Below, piece after piece: positions 4,824 to 41,274 of a stretch of DNA of 64,000 nucleotides (the first letter of the stretch is position 1; every line of letters begins with the position of its first letter). The notes beneath the pieces are model-generated. The model was not told where the DNA came from, searched no databases, and saw nothing but the letters and a program-made list of their open reading frames with translations. The translations under genes were made by a program, and so were the position numbers. The stretch is from the NCBI GenBank assembly GCA_902388495.1, contig CABMPP010000004.1, forward strand, positions 186,001-250,000, in the 5' to 3' direction. The DNA is from an uncultured Bacteroides sp. (GTDB lineage: Bacteria; Bacteroidota; Bacteroidia; Bacteroidales; Bacteroidaceae).

Positions 4824-4890
4824 AAGTCAAATCTCTATATGTTGTTCATTTTTAAATATTGTCCAATATTTTTCTCTTGTCCATCACTTG

Positions 4891-5421: not shown

Positions 5422-5442
5422 TAAACGTTCGTTTAATGGACG
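5422..5442 (+). repeat. Left inverted repeat of the invertible promoter
   Basis: TAAACGTTCGTTT is followed by two variable bases and TGGACG. It matches the right arm at 5616-5636 in 19 of 21 positions, inverted. The core AAACGTTCGT (5423-5432) fits ARACGTWCGT, the motif recognised by the Mpi serine invertase in B. fragilis. Confidence 0.88.
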
Positions 5443-5473
5443 CAAAGATAAAGCAGTTTTTTAAATCTGCAAA
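5443..5473 (-). promoter_or_regulatory. Promoter inside the invertible segment, firing left
   Basis: On the minus strand TTTG (5470-5473), 19 bases, then TATCTTTG (5443-5450) give an exact Bacteroides promoter. In this orientation it drives leftward toward the split ORF at 4891-5243. No comparable + strand promoter is seen inside the segment near the right arm. Confidence 0.85.
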
Positions 5474-5615
5474 ATGTTTAATAAAAATATTTGTAATTAT
5501 ATTGTTTCTTTCTATTCAATATACTGAAATACAGACAGATGGATGCTATTTTTTATATTTTAAATTTCCATTCTCTTTTATTAAACCTTGCTGCTTCTGT
5601 TTTTCTAAATCTTGA

Positions 5616-5636
5616 CGTCCAAAAAACGAACGTTTA
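5616..5636 (-). repeat. Right inverted repeat of the invertible promoter
   Basis: This is the inverted partner of 5422-5442, with the core ACGAACGTTT on the + strand. Two mismatches lie in the centre. It marks the downstream crossover site of the predicted promoter inversion. Confidence 0.88.
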
Positions 5637-5701
5637 TTGGACACTTTTATGGGTCTAATAGCTTCTTTAATAGATTATTATCGTTGCAAAAGTGTACAAT
5701 A

Positions 5702-5734
5702 CGGTTTGAGTGAGAAAATGTCTCGTTCAAACCG
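5702..5734 (+). promoter_or_regulatory. Leader hairpin upstream of upxY
   Basis: CGGTTTGAGTGAGA pairs along its full length with TCTCGTTCAAACCG (two G-U pairs) around a five-base loop. It lies in the untranslated leader between the invertible promoter and upxY. UpxY proteins prevent early termination in the leaders of their own operons, so this hairpin is a candidate recognition or pausing element. That role is inference. Confidence 0.5.
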
Positions 5735-5782
5735 CGAAGCGCACCCGGAACTGAGCTGATCTATTCGAAAAGAAATTCCTAA

Positions 5783-6319
5783 GTGACTGAACAACAGAAA
5801 TATTGGTTTGCTGCCCGCACCCGTGACAAGCAGGAATTTACAGTCCGGAAGTCTCTAGACCGACTTAAATCGGAAGAACATCTGGATCTTGACTATTATC
5901 TTCCCACACGTTTTGTCGTTTCGCAGTTGAAGTATCGTCGTAAACGCAGCGAAGTTCCGGTCATCCGAAATCTAATATTTGTTCATTCCACCAAACAGAC
6001 AGCCTGCGATATTTCTAACATTTATAATGTCTCCCTTTTCTATATGAAGGATCTTTCCACGCATTCTATGCTGGTGGTTCCTGATAAACAGATGGAGGAT
6101 TTTATGTTCGTGATGGATTTGAATCCTGATGGTGTCAGCTTTGATAGTGAAGTTCTTACTGTTGGCCATAAAGTAAAGGTTATAAAAGGAGAACTCAGCG
6201 GTATTGAAGGCGAAGTTGCCATAGAAGCCAATAAAACATACGTCGTTATTCGTATTAAAGACCTTTTGACTGCCAGTGTCAAGGTTCCCAAATCTTATTT
6301 GAAGATAATAAAAGATTGA
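5783..6319 (+). CDS. upxY: Capsule transcription antiterminator UpxY (NusG-like)
   Basis: A NusG/RfaH paralog of 178 residues that lets RNA polymerase read through its own long capsule operon. The NusG N-terminal fold starts at KYWFAARTRDKQEF (about residues 7-20), and a KOW-type segment GHKVKVIKGELSGIEGEV lies near 128-145. Length and position, first gene after an invertible promoter and next to upxZ, match the UpxY family of Bacteroides. The start is GTG at 5783; no better ATG precedes the NusG domain. Expression should depend on the promoter at 5422-5636 being turned around. Confidence 0.93.
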   Translation: MTEQQKYWFAARTRDKQEFTVRKSLDRLKSEEHLDLDYYLPTRFVVSQLKYRRKRSEVPVIRNLIFVHSTKQTACDISNIYNVSLFYMKDLSTHSMLVVPDKQMEDFMFVMDLNPDGVSFDSEVLTVGHKVKVIKGELSGIEGEVAIEANKTYVVIRIKDLLTASVKVPKSYLKIIKD

Positions 6320-6338: not shown

Positions 6339-6365
6339 TGTCATCCTGAGCTTGTCGAAGGATCT
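6339..6365. repeat. Dispersed repeat fragment between upxY and upxZ
   Basis: TGTCATCCTGAGCTTGTCGA and the following AGGATCT form a short imperfect palindrome of a type scattered through many bacterial genomes, including Bacteroidetes. It lies wholly in the gap between upxY and upxZ. That the motif is common is recalled, not checked here. Confidence 0.5.
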
Positions 6366-6402
6366 CTTCTCCTTGCTTATAAATAATAAAAACTCAATAA
6401 AG

Positions 6403-6885
6403 ATGAATTCTTTACTTTCTCATGCTCTTGAGCTTCAATATTTGGCTCATGAGCTTATGTATCTTGGCATGGACGGTGCTCCTATCTATTCAGATGATTT
6501 TGGTAAGTTGAATAAAGAGGTACTTCTAAAATCTGATTCTCTTTTTCTTTCTAAAGGTTTTGATATCGAAGAAGAAGCCAATCTGTGTCTTGCTCTTTTG
6601 ATGGGCTATAATGCCACTATTTACGATAATGGAGATAAGGAACAAAAGAAACAAGTTGTGTTGGATCGTATTTGTAGTGTCTTGGAGCAACTTCCCATTT
6701 CTTTGCTTAAAGTCCGTTTATTGGCTTATTGTTATGGAGAAATTTATGAGGAGGCTTTACTTCATGAGGCTTATGCGATTATCGAAGGTTGGAACAGGAA
6801 TACTTTGACTTCGGAGCAGGCTGAAATCATTGAAGAATTGAAAAATATTGAAGAGAATCCGTATCCGTTTGAGGTGATGGAATAA
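6403..6885 (+). CDS. upxZ: UpxZ-type inhibitor of other capsule antiterminators
   Basis: UpxZ proteins block the UpxY factors of other capsule loci, so that one capsule dominates in a cell. This protein has 160 residues from the ATG at 6403, starting MNSLLSHALELQYLAHELMY, which matches the usual UpxZ length and opening. An upstream in-frame start at 6352 would place its first codons inside a dispersed repeat, so 6403 is preferred. It follows upxY by 83 bases in the canonical upxY-upxZ order. No enzyme motif is present. Confidence 0.88.
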   Translation: MNSLLSHALELQYLAHELMYLGMDGAPIYSDDFGKLNKEVLLKSDSLFLSKGFDIEEEANLCLALLMGYNATIYDNGDKEQKKQVVLDRICSVLEQLPISLLKVRLLAYCYGEIYEEALLHEAYAIIEGWNRNTLTSEQAEIIEELKNIEENPYPFEVME

Positions 6886-13849: not shown

Positions 13850-14491
13850 ATGAATTTGAGAAATGTTTTGATAATCGGTGCTCATTATGATGATACCGAA
13901 CTGGGTGCTGGCGGTACGGCTGCTAAACTAGCTGCTGAAGGTAAGACTGTTTATAAATTAACATTAACAGATAATGAAACTAATTTTCGTCAGATGGGCA
14001 TTAAGGTTGATAATCAGTCAAGTAGAATCAGTAGTGCCAAAGCGTGCGAAGTTTTAGGAATTCATGAAATCACAGATTTCCAAACTGAGAAGTGTAATGA
14101 ACTGAAGTATTCAAAAGAAGTTATGCAACGAATTGAATCAATAATATTTAAAAAAAATATTGATACCGTTTTCATGCACTTCAGATATGATATGAACCAA
14201 GATCATATAGAAGCATCTCGCTTATGTCTCACAGCAGCAAGGCATTGTAATAATATTTTAGCGTATCAAAGTAATAATTATATCTGTGAGCAAGTTTATA
14301 ACCCGGTATATTTCGTAGATATTTCCGATTATTATCTGCAAAAAATATCAGCATTGGAGGCTTATGGAAAAGAACATAATAGGTTTGACAGATTGTTCCA
14401 AACAAAATTAGAAATGAATCACGTTTGGGGTGCACAGAATAAGGTGGAGTATGCTGAAGGATTCCATGTTGTGAAAATACTTGATTGCTAG
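13850..14491 (+). CDS. PIG-L family N-acetylglucosaminyl deacetylase
   Basis: A zinc-dependent amide hydrolase of 213 residues. The metal-binding motif appears as GAHYDDTELGAGGTAAK (residues about 10-26), a variant of the usual AHPDDE. The second metal region is HFRYDMNQDHIEASRL (about 105-120). PIG-L enzymes remove the acetyl group from GlcNAc residues on lipid or sugar carriers. Directly downstream of a glycosyltransferase, it probably deacetylates a HexNAc in the capsule precursor and so adds a positive charge. A zwitterionic capsule is therefore possible. Confidence 0.87.
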   Translation: MNLRNVLIIGAHYDDTELGAGGTAAKLAAEGKTVYKLTLTDNETNFRQMGIKVDNQSSRISSAKACEVLGIHEITDFQTEKCNELKYSKEVMQRIESIIFKKNIDTVFMHFRYDMNQDHIEASRLCLTAARHCNNILAYQSNNYICEQVYNPVYFVDISDYYLQKISALEAYGKEHNRFDRLFQTKLEMNHVWGAQNKVEYAEGFHVVKILDC

Positions 14492-15853: not shown

Positions 15854-16444
15854 ATGAAAAATATTATAGCTCCAATAGCTGTTGCGCTCAATGGAATTAG
15901 GATTTTCCCGTTATGGCTTTTACTTTGCATAAAAGTTTATGTACTGAGGGATGAATATTCTTTTTTGTTTAAGAAAGACTTAGAGCGTTCGCATATGGGT
16001 TTTTGGAGTGCCTTATATTATCGCCCTTATTTAAAGAGTATATTATATCATAGGTTAGGATTTGTTAGTTATCCTTTAAAACTAATATGCGGATCATTTC
16101 CCTTATATATACCATGTGAAAAGATACTAATGGGGGGAGTCGAATTGGAACATCCTTATAATACTTTTTTGAATGCTAGTTCTATAGGTGAAAATTTTAC
16201 GGCAATGCATTCTGTTACGATAGGAAGACGTTCAGGACGTTTAGGAGAAAAGCTCCCTGTTATTGGGAATAATGTATTTATAGGATGTGGAGCATGTATT
16301 TTGGGACACATTTCAATTGGGAGCAATGTGAAGATTGGTGCGAATGCGGTTGTTTTGAAGGACGTTCCTGATAATTCAACTGTTATAGGCAATCCTGCAT
16401 ATATAGTTAAATTGAATGGTGAAAAGGTTTACATTAAATTATAA
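15854..16444 (+). CDS. Serine acetyltransferase-like O-acetyltransferase
   Basis: 196 residues with left-handed beta-helix hexapeptide repeats in the second half: HSVTIGRRSGRLGEKLPVIG, then NVFIGCGACILGHISIGSNV and AVVLKDVPDNSTVIGNPA. The N-terminal part contains the YRPYLKSILYHRLG segment typical of capsule CysE-like acetyltransferases. It should transfer acetyl from acetyl-CoA to a sugar hydroxyl. It starts eight bases after wzy. Confidence 0.85.
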   Translation: MKNIIAPIAVALNGIRIFPLWLLLCIKVYVLRDEYSFLFKKDLERSHMGFWSALYYRPYLKSILYHRLGFVSYPLKLICGSFPLYIPCEKILMGGVELEHPYNTFLNASSIGENFTAMHSVTIGRRSGRLGEKLPVIGNNVFIGCGACILGHISIGSNVKIGANAVVLKDVPDNSTVIGNPAYIVKLNGEKVYIKL

Positions 16445-16582
16445 TACTCTTCAATAATAATATCATTTAGAATTTTAAAGAGTACTATCATTGCTTGTCT
16501 GATTCTTACGACATCGCTGTAAAGTGCTTCTAGCATCAGTGGAAACGGAATCTGTTTGAATGTCAATTACAATAATAACGCG

Positions 16583-18343
16583 ATGAATAGAAATATTGAG
16601 TTGGATGCCTTAAAGGGTATTGCTATCTTGACCGTGGTGCTTTTTCACCTTGGATTGATGCCTAATGGGTATTTGGGTGTGGATATTTTTTTAGTGATTA
16701 ATGGATATTTTATCACGAAGGGAGTTATCTCGGCCTATGAGAAGGGGAGCTTTGGATATTTTTCTTTTGTTGCCAAAAGGTTGGTACGGCTTTGGCCACT
16801 GGTGGTCTTGGTCGGAGGGGTGTCGCTGGCTGCTGGATGTTTTACTATGTTGCCTGATGACTTGGAGAATCTGGGGCAGTCGGTAGTGGCATCAAACTTT
16901 TTCTTGAACAATGTGCTAGCTTGTATCACTACAGGTAACTATTGGGATGTGGTGAACGCACACAAGCCATTGATGCACTTCTGGTATTTGGGCATTGTAG
17001 TGCAATGGTATGTTGTATATCCACTGCTCTTTATGGGGGTGCGGAAATACTGCAAACGCAACTTTTTAAGTAACGTGGAATTGCTGCTTGCGGTTCTCGT
17101 AATCGTATCGCTTGCGCTTTATTTTTCTCCTTTTTTCTCTACTGCACAGAAGTTCTACTATCTACCTTTTCGTATTTTCGAAATGGGTATAGGTGGACTG
17201 GTGGCTTTCCGTCTCTGTGCGCAGTCTAAAGATGCGTTTTTTTCGCTATCTACTGTGTGTAAGACGGTTTTTATTCTTTGTATACTTTTTGTCATTCTAC
17301 TGAATGACTATATGAATAATGCTGAGAAAATTTTGATTGTCAGCTTACTATCCGGTGGAGTGTGCTATGTTTCTGTATCAGTGAATTATGCATTGCCGGG
17401 CTTAAAAGTCCTGGCCTACTTGGGTGAAGCAAGTTTCAGCATTTATGTTTGGCATCAAGTACTTTTTGCTTTTTATAAGTATTCTTTTCACGCGCAGTTG
17501 GGATGGGTGGACTATGCTATACTGTTTGTTCTCATCGCTTTTATAAGTTTTCTTTCGTATACTTGGCTTGAAAAGCCGCTTGGCAATTGGGCGAAACATA
17601 GCACATTCAGCCTGCTTGGTGTTACTGCTGCGGCTTGTGTATTGACTACAGCGGGTGGTATGATGTTATACATAAAAGCGGGTGTGCTTCGGGATATCCC
17701 GGAACTGAATGTTTCAGCAACAGATATCCATAGGGGCATGCACGCCGAGTATTGCGACCGTATCTATAAATTGGAAAAAGACTTTGAACATAATGGGAAA
17801 CTGAAGGTAATGGTGATGGGCGACAGCTATGGACGTGACTTCGTCAATGTGCTAATGGAGTCTGTTTATAAAGATTCCATTGATTTGCGATATATGTTTC
17901 CGCATCGATTAGAATTGACCGAAGAACAGCGGAAGAGAGTGGAAGAAGCGGATGTCGTGTTTGTGCGAGCTGCATGGATGAGAGGAGCTAGTGGTTCGTT
18001 GCTGAGAGAGATAAGGAAATGTGCGAAATCCAAAATCTGGGGTATCGGTACAAAAGAGTATGGCGAAACTAACGGAAATGTTTATAGTAAACGCTTCAAA
18101 GCTGATTATCATCAAACAAGGGTCCGTATGTCTGAAAATTACAGCAAGGATTATGAAGAGGAGTTGAACTATTGGGGTGAAAACTACGTGGATTTCATAG
18201 CGCCGCTAATGGATGATAGGGGGACACTACCCGCTTTTACAGACAATGGGATGTATATTAGCCAGGATTGCAGGCATTTGACCCAAGCGGGCGCCAGATA
18301 TTATGCTAAAGTGTTTGATTTAAAAAGATTTTTATACAGATAA
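16583..18343 (+). CDS. OafA-type acyltransferase with C-terminal SGNH domain
   Basis: A membrane O-acyltransferase of 587 residues from the ATG at 16583. A TTG nine codons upstream is in frame but less likely. The acyltransferase-3 domain starts IELDALKGIAILTVVLFHLG and spans about ten helices to residue 365. A periplasmic SGNH esterase-like domain follows, with the nucleophile block MGDSYGRDF near 411-419 and the D-x-x-H block DCRHLTQAGARYY near 561. Such fusions acetylate or otherwise acylate surface sugars. It may modify capsule on the periplasmic side. GC content is higher than in the neighbouring wzy. Confidence 0.88.
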   Translation: MNRNIELDALKGIAILTVVLFHLGLMPNGYLGVDIFLVINGYFITKGVISAYEKGSFGYFSFVAKRLVRLWPLVVLVGGVSLAAGCFTMLPDDLENLGQSVVASNFFLNNVLACITTGNYWDVVNAHKPLMHFWYLGIVVQWYVVYPLLFMGVRKYCKRNFLSNVELLLAVLVIVSLALYFSPFFSTAQKFYYLPFRIFEMGIGGLVAFRLCAQSKDAFFSLSTVCKTVFILCILFVILLNDYMNNAEKILIVSLLSGGVCYVSVSVNYALPGLKVLAYLGEASFSIYVWHQVLFAFYKYSFHAQLGWVDYAILFVLIAFISFLSYTWLEKPLGNWAKHSTFSLLGVTAAACVLTTAGGMMLYIKAGVLRDIPELNVSATDIHRGMHAEYCDRIYKLEKDFEHNGKLKVMVMGDSYGRDFVNVLMESVYKDSIDLRYMFPHRLELTEEQRKRVEEADVVFVRAAWMRGASGSLLREIRKCAKSKIWGIGTKEYGETNGNVYSKRFKADYHQTRVRMSENYSKDYEEELNYWGENYVDFIAPLMDDRGTLPAFTDNGMYISQDCRHLTQAGARYYAKVFDLKRFLYR

Positions 18344-18384
18344 AACAGTTGTAACATTTTAAAATTGAACTAAAATTGAATCTT

Positions 18385-19458
18385 ATGTCTATATTTAAAG
18401 ACAAAGTCTTGCTGATAACAGGTGGAACGGGATCGTTCGGTAATGCTGTACTTCGTAGATTCCTTGACAGTGACATCAAGGAAATCCGCATATTCAGCCG
18501 TGATGAGAAGAAGCAGGATGACATGCGTCATCATCTGCAAAATCCGAAAGTGAAGTTTTATATTGGTAATGTCCGCGACCGCCAGTCTGTGGATGGTGCA
18601 ATGATGGGAGTGGATTATGTTTTTTCTGCTGCTGCTTTGAAACAAGTCCCCAGTTGTGAATTCTTTCCACTTCAAGCGGTACAAACGAATGTCATTGGTA
18701 CGGATAATGTATTAGAGTCGGCTATTGCTCATGGAGTGAAAAATGTAGTTGTTCTTTCTACGGATAAGGCTGCATATCCTATTAATGCCATGGGAATCAG
18801 TAAAGCTATGATGGAAAAGGTCGCTATCGCCAAAGGGCGTGCTTTGGGGGATGGAGCTGGTACAACTATTTGTTGTACTCGTTACGGTAATGTGATGGCA
18901 AGCCGTGGCTCTGTAATTCCTTTGTGGGTAGAGCAGATAAAGAATGGCAAGCCCGTTACGATAACGGATCCCAATATGACCCGTTTCATGATGACCTTGG
19001 ATGATGCCGTAGATTTGGTAATTTATGCATTTGAGCACGGTCATAACGGGGACTTGTTCGTGCAGAAAGCTCCTGCCGCCACGCTGGATGTATTGGCTCA
19101 AGCTCTAAAAGAAACTTACGCACAGATAAACCAAGAATATGGTGAGACGGAAGTAAAGACTATCGGTACCCGCCATGGTGAGAAACTGTACGAGACACTG
19201 GTGACTCGTGAAGAAATGGCTAAAGCCATTGATATGGGTGAATATTACCGTATCCCTTGTGATACCCGCGATCTGAATTATGATAAGTTCTTTACGGAGG
19301 GTAATGAGGATGTCGCTAAAATAGAAGACTACCACAGTCATAACACTGCCCGTCTGGATGTAGAAGGTATGAAAAAGCTTCTTCTGAAACTTCGTTTTAT
19401 CCGTGAAGACCTTGGACTGGAGGAAAAGGCTAAGTCTGCGGAAATCAAGAGTGAATAA
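18385..19458 (+). CDS. fnlA: UDP-GlcNAc 4,6-dehydratase/5-epimerase (FnlA/CapE type)
   Basis: First enzyme of UDP-N-acetyl-L-fucosamine synthesis. The Rossmann motif TGGTGSFGNAV is at about residues 11-21 from the ATG at 18385 (a TTG at 18376 is also in frame). The block SAAALKQVPSCEFFPLQAVQ and the segment STDKAAYPINAMGISKAMME match the inverting dehydratases CapE/FnlA/WbjB. The length of about 357 is usual. It heads the fnlA-fnlB-fnlC set, whose joint presence fixes the pathway assignment better than any one gene. Confidence 0.92.
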   Translation: MSIFKDKVLLITGGTGSFGNAVLRRFLDSDIKEIRIFSRDEKKQDDMRHHLQNPKVKFYIGNVRDRQSVDGAMMGVDYVFSAAALKQVPSCEFFPLQAVQTNVIGTDNVLESAIAHGVKNVVVLSTDKAAYPINAMGISKAMMEKVAIAKGRALGDGAGTTICCTRYGNVMASRGSVIPLWVEQIKNGKPVTITDPNMTRFMMTLDDAVDLVIYAFEHGHNGDLFVQKAPAATLDVLAQALKETYAQINQEYGETEVKTIGTRHGEKLYETLVTREEMAKAIDMGEYYRIPCDTRDLNYDKFFTEGNEDVAKIEDYHSHNTARLDVEGMKKLLLKLRFIREDLGLEEKAKSAEIKSE

Positions 19459-19477
19459 CCACCAAACATCAACTTCA

Positions 19478-20626
19478 ATGAATATTCTAGTGACCGGCGC
19501 CAAGGGGTTTGTCGGACGTAATCTTGTGTCCCAACTACATAATATCCGGTCGGGTAAGGCCCGGAATTACCGTGTACAAGGTGAGGGACTAACAGTATTT
19601 GAGTATGATACGGACAGTACCCTTGCGGAACTGGAGGAGTATTGCCGCCAGGCTGATTTTGTATTCAACTTGGCGGGTGTGAACAGACCGAAGGAACAGT
19701 CGGAGTTCATGGAAGGCAACTTCGGTTTTGCTTCCCTGCTGCTTGGTACGTTGAGGAGGTACGGCAATACCTGCCCGGTGATGATTTCCTCGTCTACCCA
19801 GGCTGCGCTTGACAATTCTTACGGCGAGTCGAAACGTGCGGGTGAACAGTTACTGTTTGAGTACTCAAGGGAAACGGGTGCAAGGGTATTGGTGTACCGC
19901 TTTCCGAATGTTTTCGGCAAATGGTGCCGTCCGAACTATAACAGTGCGGTAGCCACTTTCTGCAATAACATAGCCCATGATCTGCCCATTACGGTGAATG
20001 ATCCTTCTGTAATGATGAATCTTGTATACATTGATGACGTGGTGGATGAGCTGATAGGTGCCCTCAGTGGAAATGAGCATCGTAATGGGGACTACTGTGA
20101 AGTGCCGATAGTGCATACCGTTACTTTGGGCAGCATTGTAGAACTGATACAGTCTTTCAAGGAGATGCCCGTTACTTTGTCCGTACCAGATTTGAGTAAT
20201 GCCTTTACCAAGAAACTTTATTCCACCTATCTGTCCTATCTGCCCCAGGAAAAGTTTGCCTATCCCCTGAAGATGAATGTGGACGGGCGCGGTAGTTTTA
20301 CTGAAATTATCCGTACGGTTGGCTGTGGGCAGTTCTCGGTGAATGTTTCCAAGCCGGGCGTCACAAAGGGCCAACATTGGCATCATACGAAGAATGAGAA
20401 GTTTGTAGTGGTAAGCGGCCATGGTCTGATACAGCTCCGGAAGATAGGCACGGAAGAGATCATCAATTTTGAGGTGAGTGGCGAAAGGATGGAGGTCGTG
20501 GAAATGATTCCCGGATATACGCATAATATCATCAATCTCTCTGAAACGGAAGATCTGGTGACGTTCATGTGGTGTAACGAGTGTTTTGACCCGGATAGGC
20601 CGGATACATATTTTGAAGAGGTTTGA
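19478..20626 (+). CDS. fnlB: UDP-6-deoxy-hexosulose reductase, epimerase-cupin fusion (FnlB/CapF)
   Basis: Second step toward UDP-L-FucNAc. The N-terminal NAD(P) domain starts MNILVTGAKGFVGRNLVSQL, and the C-terminal cupin (from about residue 265) carries HWHHTKNEKFVVVSGHG and PGYTHNIINLSE. This two-domain build is the hallmark of CapF/FnlB. The start at 19478 removes the overlap with fnlA that a longer frame from 19403 would create. The length is 382 residues. Confidence 0.92.
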   Translation: MNILVTGAKGFVGRNLVSQLHNIRSGKARNYRVQGEGLTVFEYDTDSTLAELEEYCRQADFVFNLAGVNRPKEQSEFMEGNFGFASLLLGTLRRYGNTCPVMISSSTQAALDNSYGESKRAGEQLLFEYSRETGARVLVYRFPNVFGKWCRPNYNSAVATFCNNIAHDLPITVNDPSVMMNLVYIDDVVDELIGALSGNEHRNGDYCEVPIVHTVTLGSIVELIQSFKEMPVTLSVPDLSNAFTKKLYSTYLSYLPQEKFAYPLKMNVDGRGSFTEIIRTVGCGQFSVNVSKPGVTKGQHWHHTKNEKFVVVSGHGLIQLRKIGTEEIINFEVSGERMEVVEMIPGYTHNIINLSETEDLVTFMWCNECFDPDRPDTYFEEV

Positions 20627-20657: not shown

Positions 20658-21842
20658 ATGGAGATTCGATTGGATTATTCTGATATAAAGTTTCAGGAGA
20701 ACGGCAAATTGAAACTTTTGATAATCGTGGGTACCCGTCCGGAGATTATTCGCCTGGCTGCCGTGATTAATAAATGTCGCAAGTATTTTGACTGTATACT
20801 TGCCCATACAGGCCAGAATTATGATTATAACCTGAACGGGATTTTCTTTCGTGACTTGAAGCTGAAAGATCCTGATGTTTATATGAACGCCGTAGGTGAT
20901 GATCTCGGTGCCACGATGGGAAATATTATCAATGCCAGCTATAAATTGATGGCGGAGACAAATCCTGATGCAGTGTTGGTGCTTGGTGATACCAATTCTT
21001 GTCTGAGCGTGATAGGTGCCAAACGGCTTCATATTCCTATTTTCCACATGGAGGCTGGTAACCGCTGTTTTGATGAATGCCTGCCGGAAGAAACCAACCG
21101 CAGGATAGTGGATATAATTTCTGATGTGAATCTTTGCTATTCGGAACATGCCCGCCGATACCTGAACGCTTCGGGTGTGGCCAAGGAACGTACCTACGTC
21201 ACCGGCTCACCTATGGCTGAAGTGTTGCATGAGAACTTGGCGGAGATTGAGGCCAGTGATATCCATAGCCGTTTGAATCTTCAGAAGGGTAAATATATCC
21301 TGCTTTCTGCTCACCGTGAAGAGAACATTGACACAGAGAAGAACTTCCTATCGCTTTTCAATGCAATCAATACGATGGCAGAGAGATATGACATGCCTAT
21401 ACTCTACAGTTGCCATCCCCGTAGCTGGAAACGTTTGGAGTCAAGCGGCTTTGAACTGGATAGACGGGTTATCCGTCATGAACCTTTGGGCTTTCACGAT
21501 TACAACTGTTTGCAAATGAACGCTTATGCCGTTGTAAGTGACAGCGGTACATTGCCTGAAGAGAGTAGTTTCTTTACTTCGGTAGGGCATCCTTTTCCAG
21601 CGGTATGCATCCGTACCAGTACGGAACGTCCTGAAGCTCTTGACAAGGGGGGCTTTGTTCTGGCTGGTATTGACGGTAAGTCATTGCTTCAGGCTGTCGA
21701 TACTGCTGTGAAGATGAACAGGAATGGCGACAATGGTTTGCCGGTGCCCAATTATACGGATGAGAACGTCTCGGCTAAAGTTGTGAGGATAATACAGAGC
21801 TATACCGGGGTGGTGAATAAAATGGTTTGGAGAAAATTCTGA
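20658..21842 (+). CDS. fnlC: UDP-N-acetyl hexosamine 2-epimerase (FnlC/CapG)
   Basis: A WecB-like epimerase of 394 residues that completes UDP-L-FucNAc. Motifs include IIVGTRPEIIRLAAVI near the N-terminus, HTGQNYDYNLNGIFF, LVLGDTNSCLS, HMEAGNRCFDECLPEETNRR, and SDSGTLPEESSF in the C-terminal UDP-binding half. The residues fit the CapG/FnlC branch rather than housekeeping WecB because of the flanking fnlA and fnlB. It ends eight bases before the next chosen start. Confidence 0.92.
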   Translation: MEIRLDYSDIKFQENGKLKLLIIVGTRPEIIRLAAVINKCRKYFDCILAHTGQNYDYNLNGIFFRDLKLKDPDVYMNAVGDDLGATMGNIINASYKLMAETNPDAVLVLGDTNSCLSVIGAKRLHIPIFHMEAGNRCFDECLPEETNRRIVDIISDVNLCYSEHARRYLNASGVAKERTYVTGSPMAEVLHENLAEIEASDIHSRLNLQKGKYILLSAHREENIDTEKNFLSLFNAINTMAERYDMPILYSCHPRSWKRLESSGFELDRRVIRHEPLGFHDYNCLQMNAYAVVSDSGTLPEESSFFTSVGHPFPAVCIRTSTERPEALDKGGFVLAGIDGKSLLQAVDTAVKMNRNGDNGLPVPNYTDENVSAKVVRIIQSYTGVVNKMVWRKF

Positions 21843-21850
21843 TTGTTTGG

Positions 21851-23053
21851 ATGAACATACTGTTTTTAACCATATCACGTATCAATGATTTGAAGGTGCG
21901 TGGCATCTATACGGACTTGATGCGTGAGTTTATGAGGAACGGGCATGCCATGTATATAGTATCCCCTTACGAACGGAGGTTTCATTTGCCTACCGGAATC
22001 ATGGAAAGCGGTGGGGCGAGAATATTGAAAGTAAAGACACTTAATATTCAGAAAACAAATATTGTGGAGAAGGGGATTGGTACCTTATTATTGGAAAGCC
22101 AGTATCTGCATGCCATTAATAAATACTGGCAGGGTGTGAAGTTCGACCTTATTCTTTATTCCACTCCTCCCATCACCTTCAATAAGGTAATCCAGACTTT
22201 AAAAAAACGCTGGAATGCGAAAACCTATCTGATGTTGAAGGATATTTTTCCACAGAATGCTGTGGATTTGGAAATGTTTTCCAAGCAGAGCGTTCTCTAT
22301 AGGATGTTTAGGAGTAAGGAAGAAAGGCTTTATGAATTATCAGATTTTATCGGTTGTATGTCACCGGCCAACTGTGAGTATGTGTTGAAACATAATCCTG
22401 CTGTTGATGCAGCAAAGGTGGAAATCTGTCCGAATAGTGTGGAATTGCAAGAGAGGTCGAAGAGGGACAAGGAACAGAGTGAGCTCCTGAAAGAACTGAA
22501 TATTCCTGCATCCAAGAGAATCTTTATCTATGGTGGTAATTTGGGAAAACCCCAAGGAATAGATTTCCTATTGAAAGTGATTGAGGAGAATGAAAAGCGG
22601 AATGACTCATATTTTATAATAGTGGGTGGAGGTACAGAATATGGCAAGATGAAGATATGGTTTGATACACACCTGCCTCAAAATGCTTGTCTTCTTGCTG
22701 CATTGCCAAAGGCAAAATATGATGAATTGGTAAGTCTGTGTGATGTAGGCTTGATCTTCCTAGACAGACGGTTTACCATACCCAATTTCCCATCGCGCCT
22801 GCTTTCATATCTGGAATACAAAATGCCGGTATTGATGGCTACGGATGTAAATACTGATGTTGGACAGATAGCTGAAGAAAATGGTTTCGGTCTGTGGACA
22901 GAGAATGGAAATATTGATACTTTTATGGAAATGGTGGAGTTTATGGTAGAAGATGAAAGGCAAATAAAGGAGATGGGGGAAAAGGGTTATAGGTTCTTGT
23001 GTGAAAACTATACGGTGGATAAGAGTTATAAGGCGGTAATGAAGCATTTTTGA
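21851..23053 (+). CDS. wbuB: Glycosyltransferase family 4, WbuB-like (probable FucNAc transferase)
   Basis: A GT-B enzyme of 400 residues from the ATG at 21851 (an upstream in-frame ATG at 21827 would overlap fnlC). It starts MNILFLTISRINDLKVRGIY and has the donor-domain block FIYGGNLGKPQGIDFLLKVI and NFPSRLLSYLEYKMPVLMAT. The overall form is like WbuB, which follows fnlABC in E. coli and transfers L-FucNAc. With fnlABC directly upstream, FucNAc is the likely donor sugar. It ends four bases before the initiating transferase gene. Confidence 0.85.
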   Translation: MNILFLTISRINDLKVRGIYTDLMREFMRNGHAMYIVSPYERRFHLPTGIMESGGARILKVKTLNIQKTNIVEKGIGTLLLESQYLHAINKYWQGVKFDLILYSTPPITFNKVIQTLKKRWNAKTYLMLKDIFPQNAVDLEMFSKQSVLYRMFRSKEERLYELSDFIGCMSPANCEYVLKHNPAVDAAKVEICPNSVELQERSKRDKEQSELLKELNIPASKRIFIYGGNLGKPQGIDFLLKVIEENEKRNDSYFIIVGGGTEYGKMKIWFDTHLPQNACLLAALPKAKYDELVSLCDVGLIFLDRRFTIPNFPSRLLSYLEYKMPVLMATDVNTDVGQIAEENGFGLWTENGNIDTFMEMVEFMVEDERQIKEMGEKGYRFLCENYTVDKSYKAVMKHF

Positions 23054-23057
23054 AAGT

Positions 23058-23666
23058 ATGTATAGACATGGCTTGAAAAGAGTGGCTGATTTCATTCTTG
23101 TTTTTATTGTATTGGTTATTATTTGGCCTATTTTATTGCTTATTACTATATGGTTGCATTTAGCCAATAAGGGAGCAGGAGCATTCTTTACTCAGGAGCG
23201 ACCTGGAAAGAATGGAAAATTTTTCCGAGTGATAAAGTTCAAGACGATGACGGATGAACGGGATGCAGACGGTAATTTGTTGCCCGATGCTGCACGTTTG
23301 ACTAAAGTCGGGTGTCTTGTACGTTCTACTTCGATAGATGAACTTCCACAACTGATAAATGTATTGAAAGGGGATATGGCCTTGATAGGACCAAGACCGT
23401 TGCTGCCCCAATACTTGCCATTATACAATGAGGTGCAGGCTCGCCGCCATGAAGTACGTCCAGGTATTACGGGCTGGGCGCAGGTGAACGGGCGCAATGC
23501 TATCAGTTGGACGCGGAAGTTTGAGCTGGATGTATGGTATGTGGACCATTGTTCTTTTCTGCTTGATTTGAAAATCGTTTTTATGACAATAAAGAAAGTC
23601 TTTGTGCGTGAGGGCATCAGTTCGGAAACTTCGGCTACTATGGAGGCTTTTACAGGAAATAATTGA
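23058..23666 (+). CDS. wcfS: Initiating undecaprenyl-phosphate sugar-1-phosphate transferase (PglC/WcfS-like)
   Basis: The short 202-residue form of the bacterial sugar transferase family, which loads the first sugar phosphate on the lipid carrier. One N-terminal membrane helix (about 13-35) precedes the catalytic part with FFRVIKFKTMTDERDADGNL, the RSTSIDELPQLINVLKGDMA block and LIGPRPLLPQYLPLY. Enzymes of this size commonly use 2,4-diamino-type sugars, such as PglC in Campylobacter and WcfS in B. fragilis PSA. The PglD- and PglE-like genes nearby support that. The exact substrate is inferred. Confidence 0.9.
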   Translation: MYRHGLKRVADFILVFIVLVIIWPILLLITIWLHLANKGAGAFFTQERPGKNGKFFRVIKFKTMTDERDADGNLLPDAARLTKVGCLVRSTSIDELPQLINVLKGDMALIGPRPLLPQYLPLYNEVQARRHEVRPGITGWAQVNGRNAISWTRKFELDVWYVDHCSFLLDLKIVFMTIKKVFVREGISSETSATMEAFTGNN

Positions 23667-23674: not shown

Positions 23675-24316
23675 ATGAAAGATATTGCAATTTATGGAGC
23701 TGGAGGGTTTGGACGTGAAGTCGCTTGTCTGTTGAGTAGAATTAATGCGGTGGCACCGGAATGGAACTTGATAGGTTTTTTTGATGATGGTAAGGAACCG
23801 GGCTATGCCACTGAATATGGTAAAGTATTGGGGGGAATTGAACATTTGAATTCTTTTTCCTCTCCTCTTTCCATTGTGATAGCTATCGGTTCTCCGAAAG
23901 TGGTAGAGAAGGTGGTGAGTAAAGTTACGAATCCGTTGATTGATTTTCCAACTTTATTTTCTCCTGATACTCTTTTTTTGGACAAGTATAATATCTCTTT
24001 TGGACAAGGGAATCTAGTTTGTTCAGGATGCCTATTTTCTTGTAATGTGAAAGTCGGTAATTTTAATACGTTCAATGGGTTTATAACGGTTGGTCATGAT
24101 GCTACCATCAATAATTTCAACTCTTTCATGCCTGCAGTTCGAATCTCTGGTGAAGTAAATATCGGAAGCCGTAATTTCTTTGGAGTATCTTCTGTGGTGT
24201 TACAACAGATAAAGATTGGTAATGATACCGTGGTAGGAGCCAATAGTACAATTCTTAGAAAAACAAAAGATGGAAATACATATGTGGGCAATCCTGCATC
24301 AATTGTGAAATATTAA
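23675..24316 (+). CDS. Sugar N-acyltransferase, PglD/NeuD family
   Basis: 214 residues from the ATG at 23675. The N-terminal nucleotide-sugar domain starts MKDIAIYGAGGFGREVACLL; the C-terminal half is a left-handed beta-helix with hexapeptides such as VNIGSRNFFGVSSVVLQQI and ends GNPASIVKY. PglD relatives add an acyl group to the 4-amino of a UDP-4-amino-sugar, usually from acetyl-CoA. The acyl carrier protein gene starts eight bases later, so here the donor may be an acyl-ACP. That donor is an inference from context. Confidence 0.87.
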   Translation: MKDIAIYGAGGFGREVACLLSRINAVAPEWNLIGFFDDGKEPGYATEYGKVLGGIEHLNSFSSPLSIVIAIGSPKVVEKVVSKVTNPLIDFPTLFSPDTLFLDKYNISFGQGNLVCSGCLFSCNVKVGNFNTFNGFITVGHDATINNFNSFMPAVRISGEVNIGSRNFFGVSSVVLQQIKIGNDTVVGANSTILRKTKDGNTYVGNPASIVKY

Positions 24317-24324
24317 AAGTAGAT

Positions 24325-24561
24325 ATGATTATGGAATTAAAAGAATTTGTTGAACATTTTGCGGAACAGTTTGAAGATACCGAAGTTTCAGATTTTCATT
24401 CTGATACAAAATTTAAGGAATTAGATGAGTGGTCTTCCTTGATGGCTCTGTCTGTCATAGCCATGGTGGATGAAGAATATGCTATCCGTATTAAAGGAGA
24501 TGATATTCGTTCATCGGAAACCATAGAGGATTTGTTCAATCTAGTTAAACGTAGAAGCTAA
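24325..24561 (+). CDS. Dedicated acyl carrier protein
   Basis: 78 residues, acidic, with the carrier-protein helix pattern. The attachment serine lies in LDEWSSLMALSVIAMVDEEY, which replaces the usual DSL motif by SSL near residue 38. The second start at 24331 is equally plausible. It is not the housekeeping acpP, which is nearly invariant and pairs with fabF. Placement between an N-acyltransferase and a reductase/ketosynthase pair suggests it carries the acyl chain for sugar decoration. Confidence 0.85.
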   Translation: MIMELKEFVEHFAEQFEDTEVSDFHSDTKFKELDEWSSLMALSVIAMVDEEYAIRIKGDDIRSSETIEDLFNLVKRRS

Positions 24562-24627
24562 TCTTTTATGATTTTTTCATCAGGTAGATATCATAATTTG
24601 TATTGGAGTTGTTGAATTATAGTAGTG

Positions 24628-25383
24628 ATGTATAATCCTTTTTCTTTGAATGGGAAAACGGTATTAGTGACAGGGGCGTCTTCTGGAATAGGACGTTCTA
24701 TTGCCGTGGAGTGTTCCCGTATGGGGGCAAGTGTTGTCTTGACTGGCCGTAATATGGAGCGGCTGAACGTAACCTTGGATTTGATGGGGCGTGGAAATCA
24801 CATGGTGTTGCCTGCGGATTTATTGAATGAGTCTGATATCGTGAAGCTTGTGGATGAGTTACCGGTATTGGATGGAATTGTTCATAATGCCGGTGTTGGT
24901 AATAGAGTGATTTGCAAGGCTGTGAAGGTTCATGATATAAACTTCTCTTTTAAACCTAATTTCTATGGGCCTGTATTATTACAGCGCTATTTATTGAAGA
25001 AGAAAAAAGTAAATAGGGAAGCCTCCATTGTCTTTATAGCTTCCCGTGCTCCTTTTGCACCGTCTGTTGGAAATAGCATCTATGCAGCATCTAAAGGAGC
25101 GATTCTGGGGTATGCGAAGGTTCTCGCACTTGAGGTTGCTCCTCAAAAAATACGGGTCAACTCGATCTGTCCTGCCATGGTATGGACGGATTTGGTAGAA
25201 AAGGATGCCTTGGCAATGGGAGCTGATTATCATGAACTTCAAATGAAATATCCTTTGAAACGTTATGGCAAACCAGAAGATGTGGCTTATTTGACGATTT
25301 ATCTTCTTTCTGATGCTTCTTGCTGGATGACTGGGAATGCCATTGATTTGACAGGAGGGGGCGAAGGAATTTTAACATTGTAA
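24628..25383 (+). CDS. Short-chain dehydrogenase, FabG-like
   Basis: 251 residues. It has the cofactor motif TGASSGIGRSIAVE (about 15-28), NAG in IVHNAGVGN, and the catalytic Ser and Tyr-x3-Lys in FIASRAPFAPSVGNSIYAAS and KGAILGYAK. It closes with DLTGGGEGILTL, typical of 3-oxoacyl-ACP reductases. A GTG one codon earlier (24625) is also possible. Between an ACP and a FabH-like gene, reduction of a 3-ketoacyl-ACP to a 3-hydroxyacyl-ACP is the best guess. Reduction of a keto-sugar is the alternative. Confidence 0.87.
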   Translation: MYNPFSLNGKTVLVTGASSGIGRSIAVECSRMGASVVLTGRNMERLNVTLDLMGRGNHMVLPADLLNESDIVKLVDELPVLDGIVHNAGVGNRVICKAVKVHDINFSFKPNFYGPVLLQRYLLKKKKVNREASIVFIASRAPFAPSVGNSIYAASKGAILGYAKVLALEVAPQKIRVNSICPAMVWTDLVEKDALAMGADYHELQMKYPLKRYGKPEDVAYLTIYLLSDASCWMTGNAIDLTGGGEGILTL

Positions 25384-25386
25384 TAT

Positions 25387-26391
25387 ATGAATGCTTATAT
25401 CGAAGCGATTAGCTATTGTTTGCCAGAGAGGATAGTTACGAATGAGGATATTATCCGTGAATTTCCGGAATGGAGTGTTGAAAAGATAGCCTCCAAGGTT
25501 GGAGTAAATAAACGTCATGTAGCGGTAGCAGATGAAACAGCTGTGGATTTGGCTATAGAAGCGGCCGAACGTCTGTTTGCTCAAGGAAAAGTCGATAGGA
25601 ATGAGATAGATTATCTATTGTTTTGTACGCAAAGTCCAGATTATCTATTGCCTTCTTCAGCGTGTATTATACAAGAACATCTAAGATTGCGGAAGAATAT
25701 TGGTGCGCTCGATTTTAATTTGGGATGTTCAGGCTATGTCTATGGCCTTTCTTTGGCTAAAGGGCTAATTTGTGGGAGAATTGCAGGGAAAGTGTTATTG
25801 TTGACAGGGGAAACTTACAATAAGCATCTTCATCCCAGAGATAAGGGGAACCGCACGATTTTTGGTGATGCCGCTTCGGCGACTGTAATTAGTATGTCAG
25901 GATTTGCGAGCATTGGAAATTTCAGTTTGGGAACGGATGGAAGCGGAGCGGAGAACTTGATCATAAGGTCGGGAGGGATGCGTTGCGCTGAAAAGTGTAA
26001 CGACTTGTCATTTGATGAAAATGGTAATCCTCATTCTTCGGACTTTCTTTATATGAACGGGAGTGAAATCTTTACGTTTACATTAGATAATGTTCCTCCT
26101 TTGGTAGAAGATACACTGCTTTGTAATGGAATCCAGAAGGAAAAAGTAGATTTGTTTGTTTTTCATCAGGCGAATAAGTATATGCTGGATTTTCTACGCA
26201 AGAAAATAAAGATTGTACCGGAACGCTTTTATTATTGTCTGTCGGAGTACGGAAATACAGTTTCCAATACAATACCTATAGCTTTGTGTGAAGCGATGAC
26301 TGAAAAAAGAATTGGCGGGGATATGAAAGTTCTGATAGCTGGTTTTGGTGTGGGTTATTCCTGGGGCGGTACAGTTCTTCACTTTTCTTAA
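25387..26391 (+). CDS. 3-oxoacyl-ACP synthase III (FabH-like)
   Basis: A ketosynthase III of 334 residues that condenses an acyl-CoA with malonyl-ACP. The triad is visible: Cys in LGCSGYVYGL (about 114), His in FHQANKYML (about 260) and Asn in YGNTVSNTIPIAL (about 290). It starts three bases after the reductase gene, in one transcription unit with ACP and the PglD-like gene. A capsule-borne FabH would let the locus make its own short acyl-ACP, for example acetoacetyl-ACP. The product is inferred; the fold and active site are clear. Confidence 0.9.
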   Translation: MNAYIEAISYCLPERIVTNEDIIREFPEWSVEKIASKVGVNKRHVAVADETAVDLAIEAAERLFAQGKVDRNEIDYLLFCTQSPDYLLPSSACIIQEHLRLRKNIGALDFNLGCSGYVYGLSLAKGLICGRIAGKVLLLTGETYNKHLHPRDKGNRTIFGDAASATVISMSGFASIGNFSLGTDGSGAENLIIRSGGMRCAEKCNDLSFDENGNPHSSDFLYMNGSEIFTFTLDNVPPLVEDTLLCNGIQKEKVDLFVFHQANKYMLDFLRKKIKIVPERFYYCLSEYGNTVSNTIPIALCEAMTEKRIGGDMKVLIAGFGVGYSWGGTVLHFS

Positions 26392-26517: not shown

Positions 26518-27762
26518 ATGGATAAGAGAGTATATCTTTGCCTCGCTCACATGAGCGGCAAAGAGATGGGCTTCATACAGGAAGCTTTTGATACGAACTG
26601 GGTAGTTCCGCTCGGTCCGAATGTGAATGCCTTTGAGCAGGATTTGGAACGCTTCATCGGTCAGGACAAGAAGGTAGTGGCTTTGAGTGCCGGTACGGCA
26701 GCGGTACATCTGGCTTTGTTAGCTTGTGGAGTGGGGCAGGGTGACGAAGTGATAGTACAAAGCTTTACCTTCTGTGCCTCTTCCCATCCGGTGACTTATC
26801 TCGGGGCTACTCCGGTATTTGTGGACTCCGAGGCTGATACGTGGAACATGGATCCGATTCTTTTGGAGAAAGCTATCGAGGACCGTATTCTCAAGACAGG
26901 TCGGAAGCCCAAAGCGATTGTTCCGGTTTATCTGTATGGCATGCCTGCTAAGATTAGTGAGATAATGGCGATAGCTACCAAGTATGACATTCCGGTAATA
27001 GAAGATGCTGCCGAAGGCTTTGGCAGTAAGTATAACGGACGTATGTGTGGGACGTTCGGTAAGTACGGTGTCCTGAGTTTCAACGGCAATAAGATGATAA
27101 CTACCAGTGGCGGCGGTGCCTTGATTTGTGCTGACGAGGAGGCGAAGCGTGAGATTATGTTCTATGCCACTCAGGCGCGTGAGTCTTATCCTTACTATCA
27201 GCATGAGCAGATAGGCTATAACTATAGGATGAGTAACATTTGCGCCGGCATTGGTCGCGGTCAGATGACGGTGGCGAACGAACATATAGAGCATCACAAG
27301 TATGTATGCGGTCTGTATCGCGACTTGCTTGCAGATGTGGAGGGAGTTACATTGCATGAGAATCCTTCTACCCTCTATAACAGTAATTACTGGCTGAACA
27401 CAGTGCTTCTGGATGAGAATTTGCATGTAAAGGGCGAGGAGGATGCTTATGGTGAAACAGTGAAGGGAGCCGTTGGTGGCGCGGCGGGTGTGACGCATGA
27501 GGCGAAGAGTGTTCATACTGCTTGTGAGCCTAACTGTAATGTGGAGGCTATGCGTGTTTGTTTGGACAAGGCTGGTATAGAAAGTCGTCCCTTGTGGAAG
27601 CCTATGCATCTACAGCCGGTTTATGCTGCTAATCCTGCTTATGTGAATGGTGTGAGTGAGGGGCTGTTCAGGAGAGGGCTTTGCTTGCCAAGTGGTCCGT
27701 ATGTGACGGAGCAGGATGTGAGATATATTGTGGAGCAAATAAAGGTATGCTGTAAGAATTAG
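26518..27762 (+). CDS. wcfR: UDP-4-keto-sugar aminotransferase (PglE/WcfR-like, DegT family)
   Basis: A PLP enzyme of 414 residues. It opens VYLCLAHMSGKEMGFIQEAF and DTNWVVPLGPNVNAFEQDLE, has EDAAEGFGSKYNGR, and the PLP lysine lies in FNGNKMITTSGGG (about residue 192). These match PglE-type enzymes and WcfR of the B. fragilis PSA locus, which form 2-acetamido-4-amino-trideoxy sugars. A segment near residues 310-335 (GETVKGAVGGAAGVTHEAKS) looks like an extra low-complexity insert. It is the last capsule gene, followed by a terminator. It should supply the amino sugar for the initiating transferase and the PglD-like acyltransferase. Confidence 0.9.
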   Translation: MDKRVYLCLAHMSGKEMGFIQEAFDTNWVVPLGPNVNAFEQDLERFIGQDKKVVALSAGTAAVHLALLACGVGQGDEVIVQSFTFCASSHPVTYLGATPVFVDSEADTWNMDPILLEKAIEDRILKTGRKPKAIVPVYLYGMPAKISEIMAIATKYDIPVIEDAAEGFGSKYNGRMCGTFGKYGVLSFNGNKMITTSGGGALICADEEAKREIMFYATQARESYPYYQHEQIGYNYRMSNICAGIGRGQMTVANEHIEHHKYVCGLYRDLLADVEGVTLHENPSTLYNSNYWLNTVLLDENLHVKGEEDAYGETVKGAVGGAAGVTHEAKSVHTACEPNCNVEAMRVCLDKAGIESRPLWKPMHLQPVYAANPAYVNGVSEGLFRRGLCLPSGPYVTEQDVRYIVEQIKVCCKN

Positions 27763-39888: not shown

Positions 39889-41274
39889 TTATTTGTTCTT
39901 AACTATTTGCGCCATAAATTCTGCTTCGCACACTACTTTTTCGCCTACAAACACATAGCCTTTCATGGTAGAAATACCACGGCGGATAGGAGCAAGCAGC
40001 TCTACACGGAAAATCAGTGTATCTCCCGGCACTACTTTCTGGCGGAATTTCACACCGTCTATTTTCAGGAAATAAGTGGAGTAACGTTCCGGTTCGTCCA
40101 CGGAGTTCAGTACCAGTAAGCCTCCCGTCTGTGCCATTGCCTCTATCTGTAATACGCCGGGCATTACGGGTTCCTGAGGGAAGTGTCCCTGGAAGAAGGG
40201 TTCGTTGGAAGTAACGTTCTTGATACCTACAATGTAGTTGGCACCTATTTCGATAACTTTGTCCACCAGCTGCATCGGGTAACGGTGGGGCAGCAGTTCG
40301 CGGATGCGGTTGACGTCCATGATAGGTTCGCGGTTGCAGTCGTAGGTAGGAGCCTGGATTTCGTGCAGGCGGATTTCCTTACGCATCTGACGGGCGAACT
40401 TGTTATTGATGGTATGTCCCGGACGGGTGGCGATGATACGGCCTTTGATGGGCTTACCTATCAGAGCCAGGTCACCGATAACATCCAGCAATTTATGACG
40501 GGCGCACTCGTTGGGCCATACCAGCGGCTGGTGATTAATGTAGCCCAACTGCTTGGCATCCATGTGCGGGACCCCCATCACGTCGGCCAACTTGTCATAG
40601 TTCTCTTGCGACATTTCGCGTTCGTAGATAACGATGGCATTGTCCAGGTCGCCGCCTTTGATAAGACCTGCCTGCAGCAGCGGTTCAATTTCGCGTACAA
40701 ACACGAAGGTACGGCTGGCAGCTATTTCGTCCTTGAACTTCTTCATGTCCTCCAGCGTAGCAAACTGGTTGGGAATGATGGAGGAATCGTAAGATACCAA
40801 TACGTTCAGGCTGAAATTCTCGTCGGGCAATACAATGATGGAAGAACCGGTTGCATCGTCGCGGAACTCGATTTTGGACTTGATGATATAGAAATCCTTG
40901 ACGGCATTCTGCTCCACAGTGCCCACGCGTTCTATTTCGTTGACGTAATATTGGGCGCTTCCGTCCAGGATCGGAAACTCCGGTCCGTTCACTTGTATCA
41001 GGCAGTTGTCTATGCCCAGTGCATAGAGTGCTGCCATGCCATGCTCTACCGTACTTACTTTTGCTCCGTTTTTGGAGAGTACGGTACCACGGGTAGTTTC
41101 GATAACATTATCGGCAACGGCATCGATGAGAGGTTGTCCTTCCAGGTCGATGCGTTGAATCTTATATCCGTGATTGTCAGGAGCCGGATTAAAAGTAACG
41201 GTTAGGTCAAGTCCTGTGTGCAGGCCTTTCCCACTGAGCGAAAAGCTATCTTTCAGAGTCTTTTGTTTCAACAT
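39889..41274 (-). CDS. lpxC-fabZ: Bifunctional LpxC deacetylase / FabZ dehydratase
   Basis: A fusion of 461 residues, normal in Bacteroidetes. The N-terminal LpxC part (1 to about 300) starts QKTLKDSFSLSGKGLHTGLD. It holds the zinc ligands in STVEHGMAALYALGIDN and in NECARHKLLDVIGDLALIG. The C-terminal FabZ part (about 315-461) has LLPHRYPMQLVDKV and the catalytic GHFPQEPVMPGVLQIEAMAQ. It deacetylates UDP-3-acyl-GlcNAc and dehydrates 3-hydroxyacyl-ACP, so one chain balances lipid A and fatty acid synthesis. Confidence 0.97.
   Translation of the reverse strand: MLKQKTLKDSFSLSGKGLHTGLDLTVTFNPAPDNHGYKIQRIDLEGQPLIDAVADNVIETTRGTVLSKNGAKVSTVEHGMAALYALGIDNCLIQVNGPEFPILDGSAQYYVNEIERVGTVEQNAVKDFYIIKSKIEFRDDATGSSIIVLPDENFSLNVLVSYDSSIIPNQFATLEDMKKFKDEIAASRTFVFVREIEPLLQAGLIKGGDLDNAIVIYEREMSQENYDKLADVMGVPHMDAKQLGYINHQPLVWPNECARHKLLDVIGDLALIGKPIKGRIIATRPGHTINNKFARQMRKEIRLHEIQAPTYDCNREPIMDVNRIRELLPHRYPMQLVDKVIEIGANYIVGIKNVTSNEPFFQGHFPQEPVMPGVLQIEAMAQTGGLLVLNSVDEPERYSTYFLKIDGVKFRQKVVPGDTLIFRVELLAPIRRGISTMKGYVFVGEKVVCEAEFMAQIVKNK

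Follow-up and report, generated by a model that had tools for sequence, protein, structure and literature searches.

What acyl group, drawn from which donor, does a Bacteroides capsule receive when its locus carries fatty-acid-type genes of its own? The question is raised by a block of four genes at positions 23675–26391 of a 64,000-nucleotide stretch of DNA from an uncultured Bacteroides sp. (GenBank assembly GCA_902388495.1, contig CABMPP010000004.1, positions 186,001 to 250,000; hereafter the window). The block encodes a PglD-like sugar N-acyltransferase, a dedicated acyl carrier protein (ACP), a short-chain dehydrogenase/reductase (SDR) and a ketoacyl-ACP synthase III (KAS III), and lies between the gene for a PglC-like transferase and that for a LegC/PglE-like aminotransferase. 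We propose that the four genes probably form a self-contained unit of acyl supply and transfer for the first sugar of the capsule, fed by the ACP and most likely delivering a 3-hydroxybutyryl group.

The four genes described in an earlier note on this DNA are all intact, lie on the plus strand and match Pfam families. The PglD/NeuD/VioB-type N-acyltransferase gene runs from an ATG at 23675 (or possibly from a TTG at 23663) to 24316 and encodes the catalytic His141. The ACP gene begins at 24325 or 24331 and ends at 24561; Ser36, numbered from the methionine at 24331, is the predicted phosphopantetheine site. The SDR, similar to 3-oxoacyl-ACP reductases (PF13561/PF00106), begins at 24625 (GTG) or 24628 (ATG), ends at 25383 and contains the Ser-Tyr-Lys set. 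The FabH-like KAS III gene (25387–26391) matches PF08545 (ACP_syn_III) and PF08541 (ACP_syn_III_C) and encodes Cys114, His260 and Asn290. With starts at 24325 and 24628, the intergenic gaps of 8, 66 and 3 bases in the earlier note are reproduced, and its operon layout and gene calls agree with the open reading frame (ORF) and Pfam results.

Homologs for the residue alignments came from the window and from the top 80 among 214 confirmed loci in a KAS III scan of genome contigs (L numbers below are locus labels). Cys114, His260 and Asn290 of KAS III occur in 116, 115 and 115 of the 116 rows, the missing cells being gaps, so that the intact Cys-His-Asn set claimed for the window is kept across the alignment. 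KAS III scores 253.4 bits with NF006829, above the cut-off of 249, and 236.2 bits with TIGR00747, below the cut-off of 292. The reductase matches adh_short / adh_short_C2 in Pfam, and its Ser140, Tyr153 and Lys157 are found in 75, 77 and 77 of 77 rows. The PglD-like protein matches PF17836 (PglD_N, 49.6 bits) and PF00132 (Hexapep) in Pfam and reaches 159.9 bits with TIGR03570 in NCBIfam, just below the cut-off of 160.8. It has a PglD_N domain, a left-handed beta helix and a catalytic histidine, the features of its family; the histidine is kept in 35 of 36 rows, the remaining row being gapped. Its structural model (mean pLDDT 96.6) has fold matches in the PDB to PerB, PglB, VioB, WeeI and PglD.

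The ACP scores only marginally with PF00550 (PP-binding; 20.9 bits against a Pfam cut-off of 20.8), and we therefore examined the assignment through relatives, a profile and a model; NCBIfam gave no match. Ser36 is conserved in 77 of 77 rows. Twenty-three of 40 relatives match PF00550 at an E value of 0.001 and 17 do not, and a profile of the 40 recovers solved ACPs, the top match being 2lml (E 3.4e-8), described as a holo-ACP of Geobacter metallireducens. The AlphaFold2 model (mean pLDDT 95.1) is a four-helix bundle in which Ser36 opens helix II, as in an ACP, and its fold matches in the PDB are largely ACPs; phosphopantetheinylation is predicted. The relatives' PF00550 matches, the profile search and the model rule out the view that so marginal a Pfam score means 'no ACP'.

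Is the grouping of these genes more than an accident of one genome? A census of 114 non-repeated loci with a KAS III of the window's type, the window included, found an ACP nearby in 104, a reductase in 91 and both in 88; the ten loci without an ACP include cut contigs, and the census is partly circular because its profiles came from the KAS III scan loci. Since ACP, reductase and KAS III occur together in 88 of the 114, the grouping is not chance, and this co-occurrence, with the intact ORFs and active-site residues, rules out both a chance assembly and broken genes. Judged by its sequence, the block is real, functional-looking and ordinary in its parts. The closest KAS III relative among the best 80 of 214 loci is 76% identical. 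Whole-genome samples scored with the window KAS III at E 1e-100 contain a close KAS III in three groups: the genus of L004 (6 of 111 genomes), the order that includes L006, a Parabacteroides (24 of 393), and the genus to which L052, F. johnsoniae, belongs (17 of 249). Homologous blocks, which the earlier note had suggested seeking in other Bacteroides capsule loci, occur in L004 (Bacteroides sp.) and are widespread in Bacteroidota. Two contigs labelled as Spirochaete (L009 and L013) also carry the block, with KAS III 68% and 66% identical to that of the window, perhaps by horizontal spread or through a binning error. L036 (7001–10528) and L064 (7023–11269) contain a doubled ACP-KR-KS-KS-ACP-KR block (KR, reductase; KS, ketosynthase), perhaps a longer line with two ACPs. 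Sets of ACP, KAS III and reductase also serve other pathways, and the three products might serve to build a free lipid or a small metabolite that has nothing to do with the capsule, the genes merely travelling with it. We consider this highly improbable, given that the block sits inside a run of capsule genes, between two of them, and that other genera, too, have it amid sugar genes.

How would such a block act on the capsule? The reactions that follow, with their donors, sugar and chain length, are those that we infer. KAS III would condense acetyl coenzyme A (acetyl-CoA) with malonyl carried on the dedicated ACP, and the SDR would reduce the 3-oxo group to give a 3-hydroxyacyl-ACP, most likely 3-hydroxybutyryl-ACP. 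The LegC/PglE-like aminotransferase would make UDP-4-amino-4,6-dideoxy-GlcNAc from a 4-keto sugar; the dehydratase that forms the keto sugar probably has its gene outside the locus. The PglD-like enzyme would take the 3-hydroxyacyl group off the ACP and attach it to the 4-amino group of the aminotransferase product, the PglC-like enzyme would load the acylated sugar phosphate onto undecaprenyl phosphate, and the neighbouring family 4 glycosyltransferase (GT4) would add L-FucNAc, made by FnlABC, to the acylated sugar. The earlier note had proposed the flow from KAS III through reductase and ACP to transfer by the PglD-like enzyme; this flow, with loading by the PglC-like enzyme, agrees well with the gene content and with the PglD-ACP linkage described next, but is not new in kind.

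Is the ACP the donor for the PglD-like enzyme? A search with the window PglD at E 1e-35 gave 11 matches in 10 of the 393 genomes and 13 in 12 of the 111, and the neighbourhoods of all 24 matches were inspected. A same-strand ACP lies in the stretch in 19 cases, four have none, and one (L171) is ambiguous: the ACP block ∼5 kb away is that of a different PglD (L154), and L171 itself clusters with rows that have no ACP. All 17 matches of at least 42% identity have such an ACP, as against two of the seven below 42%, and in most of the 19 linked cases the ACP is adjacent or one gene apart. Two of the four ACP-free cases (L157 and L159) are on short or cut contigs. In the PglD tree, L156, L157, L158 and L171 cluster (98/98), and 13 of the 25 inner forks are unresolved. 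The ACP of L161 has a frame break upstream of its DEWSSL motif, around the PglD-KR gap, which may be an assembly error. The window's PglD clade appears to go with an ACP, and genome context points to the ACP as acyl donor. Conceivably, the PglD-like enzyme is an acetyltransferase with acetyl-CoA as its donor, like the one in diacetylbacillosamine synthesis, and the ACP block supplies the OafA-type acyltransferase (16556–18343) or the hexapeptide enzyme (15854–16444) of the locus. The best structural matches of the PglD-like model are indeed acetyl-CoA enzymes, the locus has these two additional acyltransferase-like genes, and in other loci the same cassette lies near MBOAT or GNAT genes. We nevertheless judge this arrangement improbable, in view of the 8 bases that separate the PglD and ACP genes in the window and of an ACP sharing the stretch with every close PglD match, four of the seven less similar matches having none and one being ambiguous.

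Which acyl group would the ACP deliver? With one ketosynthase in the locus, one round of condensation is expected; 3-hydroxybutyryl is therefore the best guess, and the acyl group is most likely this one. The same ACP-fed acylation could use another group: KAS III might act twice (giving 3,5-dihydroxyhexanoyl), might take another acyl-CoA primer (giving a longer or branched chain), or the 3-oxo group might be kept. Relatives of the same PglD clade (L002, L004, L006 and L109) have a second ketosynthase, and the window KAS III carries a leucine at the position of E. coli FabH Phe87, which we take to be the pocket gate. The locus has one ketosynthase and one reductase, for which a C4 product is simplest, and single-ketosynthase blocks are common, so we rate a different acyl group as rather unlikely. 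Ketosynthases were counted within 3.5 kb in 72 full blocks whose KAS III is no nearer than 3.5 kb to the end of a contig: 39 blocks have one ketosynthase (a PglD-like gene accompanies it in 7) and the other 33 have two (with such a gene in 27). Without L052 to L080, which are mostly similar Flavobacterium loci with some other genera, there are 36 one-ketosynthase blocks (6 with a PglD-like gene) and 12 two-ketosynthase blocks (7). Predicting the primer, acetyl-CoA or another, from E. coli FabH pocket positions, the leucine at the Phe87 position included, was not decisive. A ketosynthase of the second type (KSB) was matched in 61 of the 393 genomes at E 1e-70, in a search that scored only five candidates in many genomes.

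Several observations weigh against ACP-fed 3-hydroxybutyrylation of the capsule, and the capsule itself is known here from its genes alone. The seven rows of the window's PglD clade mix loci with one ketosynthase (the window, L038 and L055) with the four that have two; the PglD therefore does not reveal chain length, which may shift through gain or loss of a ketosynthase. A KSB of at least 50% identity is present in G243, G266, G366, G475 and G486, none of which has a match to the first type (KSA) in the E 1e-100 scan of the 393 genomes; on this ground we dropped the idea that KSA is an obligate starter and KSB an optional extender. The ACP is 5.6 kb from the PglD gene in L151 and 3.7 kb in L154; with the distance in L171, a same-strand ACP in the stretch is therefore not always a tight link. 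PglD residues N167, Q177 and Y203 occur in 23 of 23 ACP-linked near rows versus one of four ACP-free rows, and are missing from several distant ACP-linked rows; as a donor signature they are suggestive only. Finally, the window's ORF lists, scanned in part, contain no second 4,6-dehydratase, only FnlA. A PF02719 frame of at least 644 residues exists somewhere in all ten relative genomes searched.

How general is the arrangement? We clustered the genes that lie up to two places from the block and scanned representatives against Pfam, with a simple ORF rule for boundaries. Near the block we found a GNAT cluster of the PF13527 kind in 10 loci (two members scanned, one above and one below the Pfam cut-off), GNAT PF13302 in 4 loci (one scanned), AAC(3)-like PF02522 in 5 loci (two scanned), MBOAT PF03062 in 11 loci (one scanned), and a Rieske oxygenase in 22 loci, 20 of them within L052–L080 (two scanned). 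Pfam had no match for two further clusters of recurrent neighbours, for the L110 gene that separates PglC from ACP or for three genes that follow the L001 block; the GNAT-like neighbour in L032 has no solved relative at E 1. In Flavobacterium, a Rieske oxygenase lies inside the acyl block (L068, 6161–7249; L123, 9924–11012), where it might further oxidize the acyl chain. Tentatively, the ACP-reductase-KAS III cassette may be a plug-in acyl supply across surface-polysaccharide loci of Bacteroidota, in which the chain is set by how many ketosynthases there are, by their type and by additional enzymes (the Rieske oxygenase, for example), and an exchangeable acyltransferase (PglD-like, GNAT, AAC(3)-like or MBOAT) sets the position on the sugar; the window would be its minimal form. 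More than one kind of acyltransferase in some loci (GNAT and AAC(3) in L039, MBOAT and PglD-like in L088) speaks against a simple rule. Capsule surface chemistry governs the encounters of gut Bacteroides with antibodies and phages. If true, a combinatorial acyl code of this kind would underlie diversity in capsules and O-antigens. A short hydroxyacyl amide made by the locus would be a serotype-setting mark predictable from gene content, and the system allows acyl length to be checked directly against the number of ketosynthases.

The surrounding genes identify a Bacteroides-type capsule locus. The core LpxC/FabZ protein encoded at 39889–41274 of the window is 97% identical to a sequence cluster of 5770 members and, more weakly (89%), matches a sequence named Bacteroides sp. 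Its first gene (5783–6319, plus strand; PF02357, 39.4 bits) encodes a NusG-like antiterminator, which we call UpxY because the gene precedes upxZ (6352–6885, plus strand; PF06603, 153 bits); both precede the Wzx, Wzy and glycosyltransferase genes. The locus further encodes a MatE-family flippase, a Wzy-like protein whose Wzy_C match is below the Pfam cut-off, a UDP-sugar dehydrogenase, and GT8 and GT4 enzymes. A PIG-L-family de-N-acetylase gene (13850–14491; PF02585) near the Wzy-like, hexapeptide and OafA-type genes suggests that amino or acyl groups of the capsule may be edited further. Upstream, in the same plus-strand run as the block, are genes for FnlA-like UDP-GlcNAc 4,6-dehydratase/5-epimerase (18376–19458; TIGR04130, 568.6 bits, below the cut-off of 730; PF02719, 343.7 bits), FnlB-like UDP-2-acetamido-2,6-dideoxy-hexulose reductase (19475–20626, in an ORF that opens at 19403; NF047837, 398.7 bits, below the cut-off of 500) and FnlC-like non-hydrolysing UDP-GlcNAc 2-epimerase (20658–21842; TIGR00236, 220 bits, above the cut-off of 210). 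They are followed by the GT4 gene, in the place of WfpA/WbuB (21851–23053, in an ORF that opens at 21827; PF00534, 44.8 bits; searches used 21863–23050), and by the PglC-like phosphoglycosyl transferase gene (23058–23666; PF02397, 206.7 bits), both on the plus strand. Downstream of the block is the LegC/PglE/WcfR-type sugar aminotransferase gene (26518–27762, plus strand; PF01041, 303 bits; TIGR04181, 346.6 bits, below the cut-off of 420).

This gene order is conserved in relatives. L004 (Bacteroides sp.) and L076 (Flavobacteriaceae) have PglC-PglD-ACP-KS-KR-KS-AT (AT, aminotransferase), the window order with one extra ketosynthase. L109 keeps the order from PglC to AT, likewise with one extra ketosynthase and with two small genes between the last KS and AT. 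Beside AT, L109 encodes a 637-residue PF02719 dehydratase (by Pfam) and L076 a long dehydratase-type protein (by profile and length). In L004 a second PglD-like gene follows PglC; of the two tandem genes (4533–5929), only the second belongs to the window's PglD clade. Upstream of the block, the run FnlA-FnlB-FnlC-GT4-PglC has a collinear counterpart in Flavobacterium L123 and L119. Identities to L123, whose KAS III is identical to one named Flavobacterium xinjiangense, are 67, 34, 48, 52 and 62% in that order, and the L119 counterpart of GT4 shows 51% identity.

How does the window compare with known systems? The Campylobacter PglF-PglE-PglD-PglC route to diacetylbacillosamine shares the PglD fold and the pathway places of PglD, PglE and PglC, but uses acetyl-CoA as donor and has no ACP block, whereas the window has one. 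AntD (3vbi) is a hexapeptide N-acyltransferase acting on a dTDP-4-amino-4,6-dideoxy sugar, like the window enzyme in fold; it was crystallized with CoA and the dTDP sugar and is a weaker fold match (E 3.3e-6). GmACP3 of G. metallireducens, from another phylum, is reportedly a specialised ACP with a W-x-S-L motif like that of the window ACP; we take 2lml to be this protein, to which its paper's title reportedly gives a putative role in lipopolysaccharide (LPS) synthesis. Bacteroides fragilis PS A2 is a Bacteroides capsule with 3-hydroxybutanoic acid, but the available parts of its description place the hydroxybutanoate in an ether linkage to heptose, not in an amide, and we rejected it as a precedent (PMC12648304). 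Amides of 3-hydroxybutanoyl on amino sugars are described for other bacteria (PMC12355684, PMC6222762); the available portions of these two papers and of PMC5601056 hold nothing decisive for the window's route. Among the open-licence matches listed, no title or abstract opening mentions acyl supply by an ACP to a Bacteroides capsule, a weak negative.

The closest parallel is the O-polysaccharide of the fish pathogen Flavobacterium psychrophilum, a species not among the names in the best 120 proteins of our protein search. As set out in the available parts of its report, nuclear magnetic resonance places a 3,5-dihydroxyhexanoyl amide on Qui2NAc4N; WfpB is a PglC homolog, WfpG a PglD homolog predicted to use WfpD, the locus-specific ACP, as its acyl donor, WfpC and WfpE are two ketoacyl synthases and WfpF is a reductase, and the locus also has fln/fnl genes for UDP-L-FucNAc and a WbuB-type WfpA (PMC6519341). 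Those parts present the ACP-fed route, in 2019, as a proposal without enzymology, and report that differences in R-group genes tracked differences in LPS antigenicity (PMC6519341). The earlier note's view that such a route is not standard finds no support, given this proposal and the homologous blocks widespread in Bacteroidota. We compared the wfp locus by its description, with Flavobacterium L119, L123 and L125 as sequence stand-ins. Within the parts described, the wfpB-wfpG and pglE/pglF/fnl locus and the window have in common a PglC-like transferase, a PglD-like enzyme, a locus ACP, a ketosynthase, a reductase, PglE, the UDP-L-FucNAc genes and a WbuB-type glycosyltransferase, and the acyl amide on C4 of QuiNAc4N, the first sugar, has the placement that we propose here. 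They differ in that the wfp locus makes an O-antigen, encodes PglF and has two ketosynthases for its 3,5-dihydroxyhexanoyl group, whereas the window has a UpxZ capsule locus, no PglF seen and one ketosynthase. With the PglD-like, ACP, reductase and ketosynthase genes beside PglC-like and PglE-like genes, and without the second ketosynthase, the window is therefore a variant of the wfp-type module rather than a full member: a one-ketosynthase version of the published idea, in a capsule locus.

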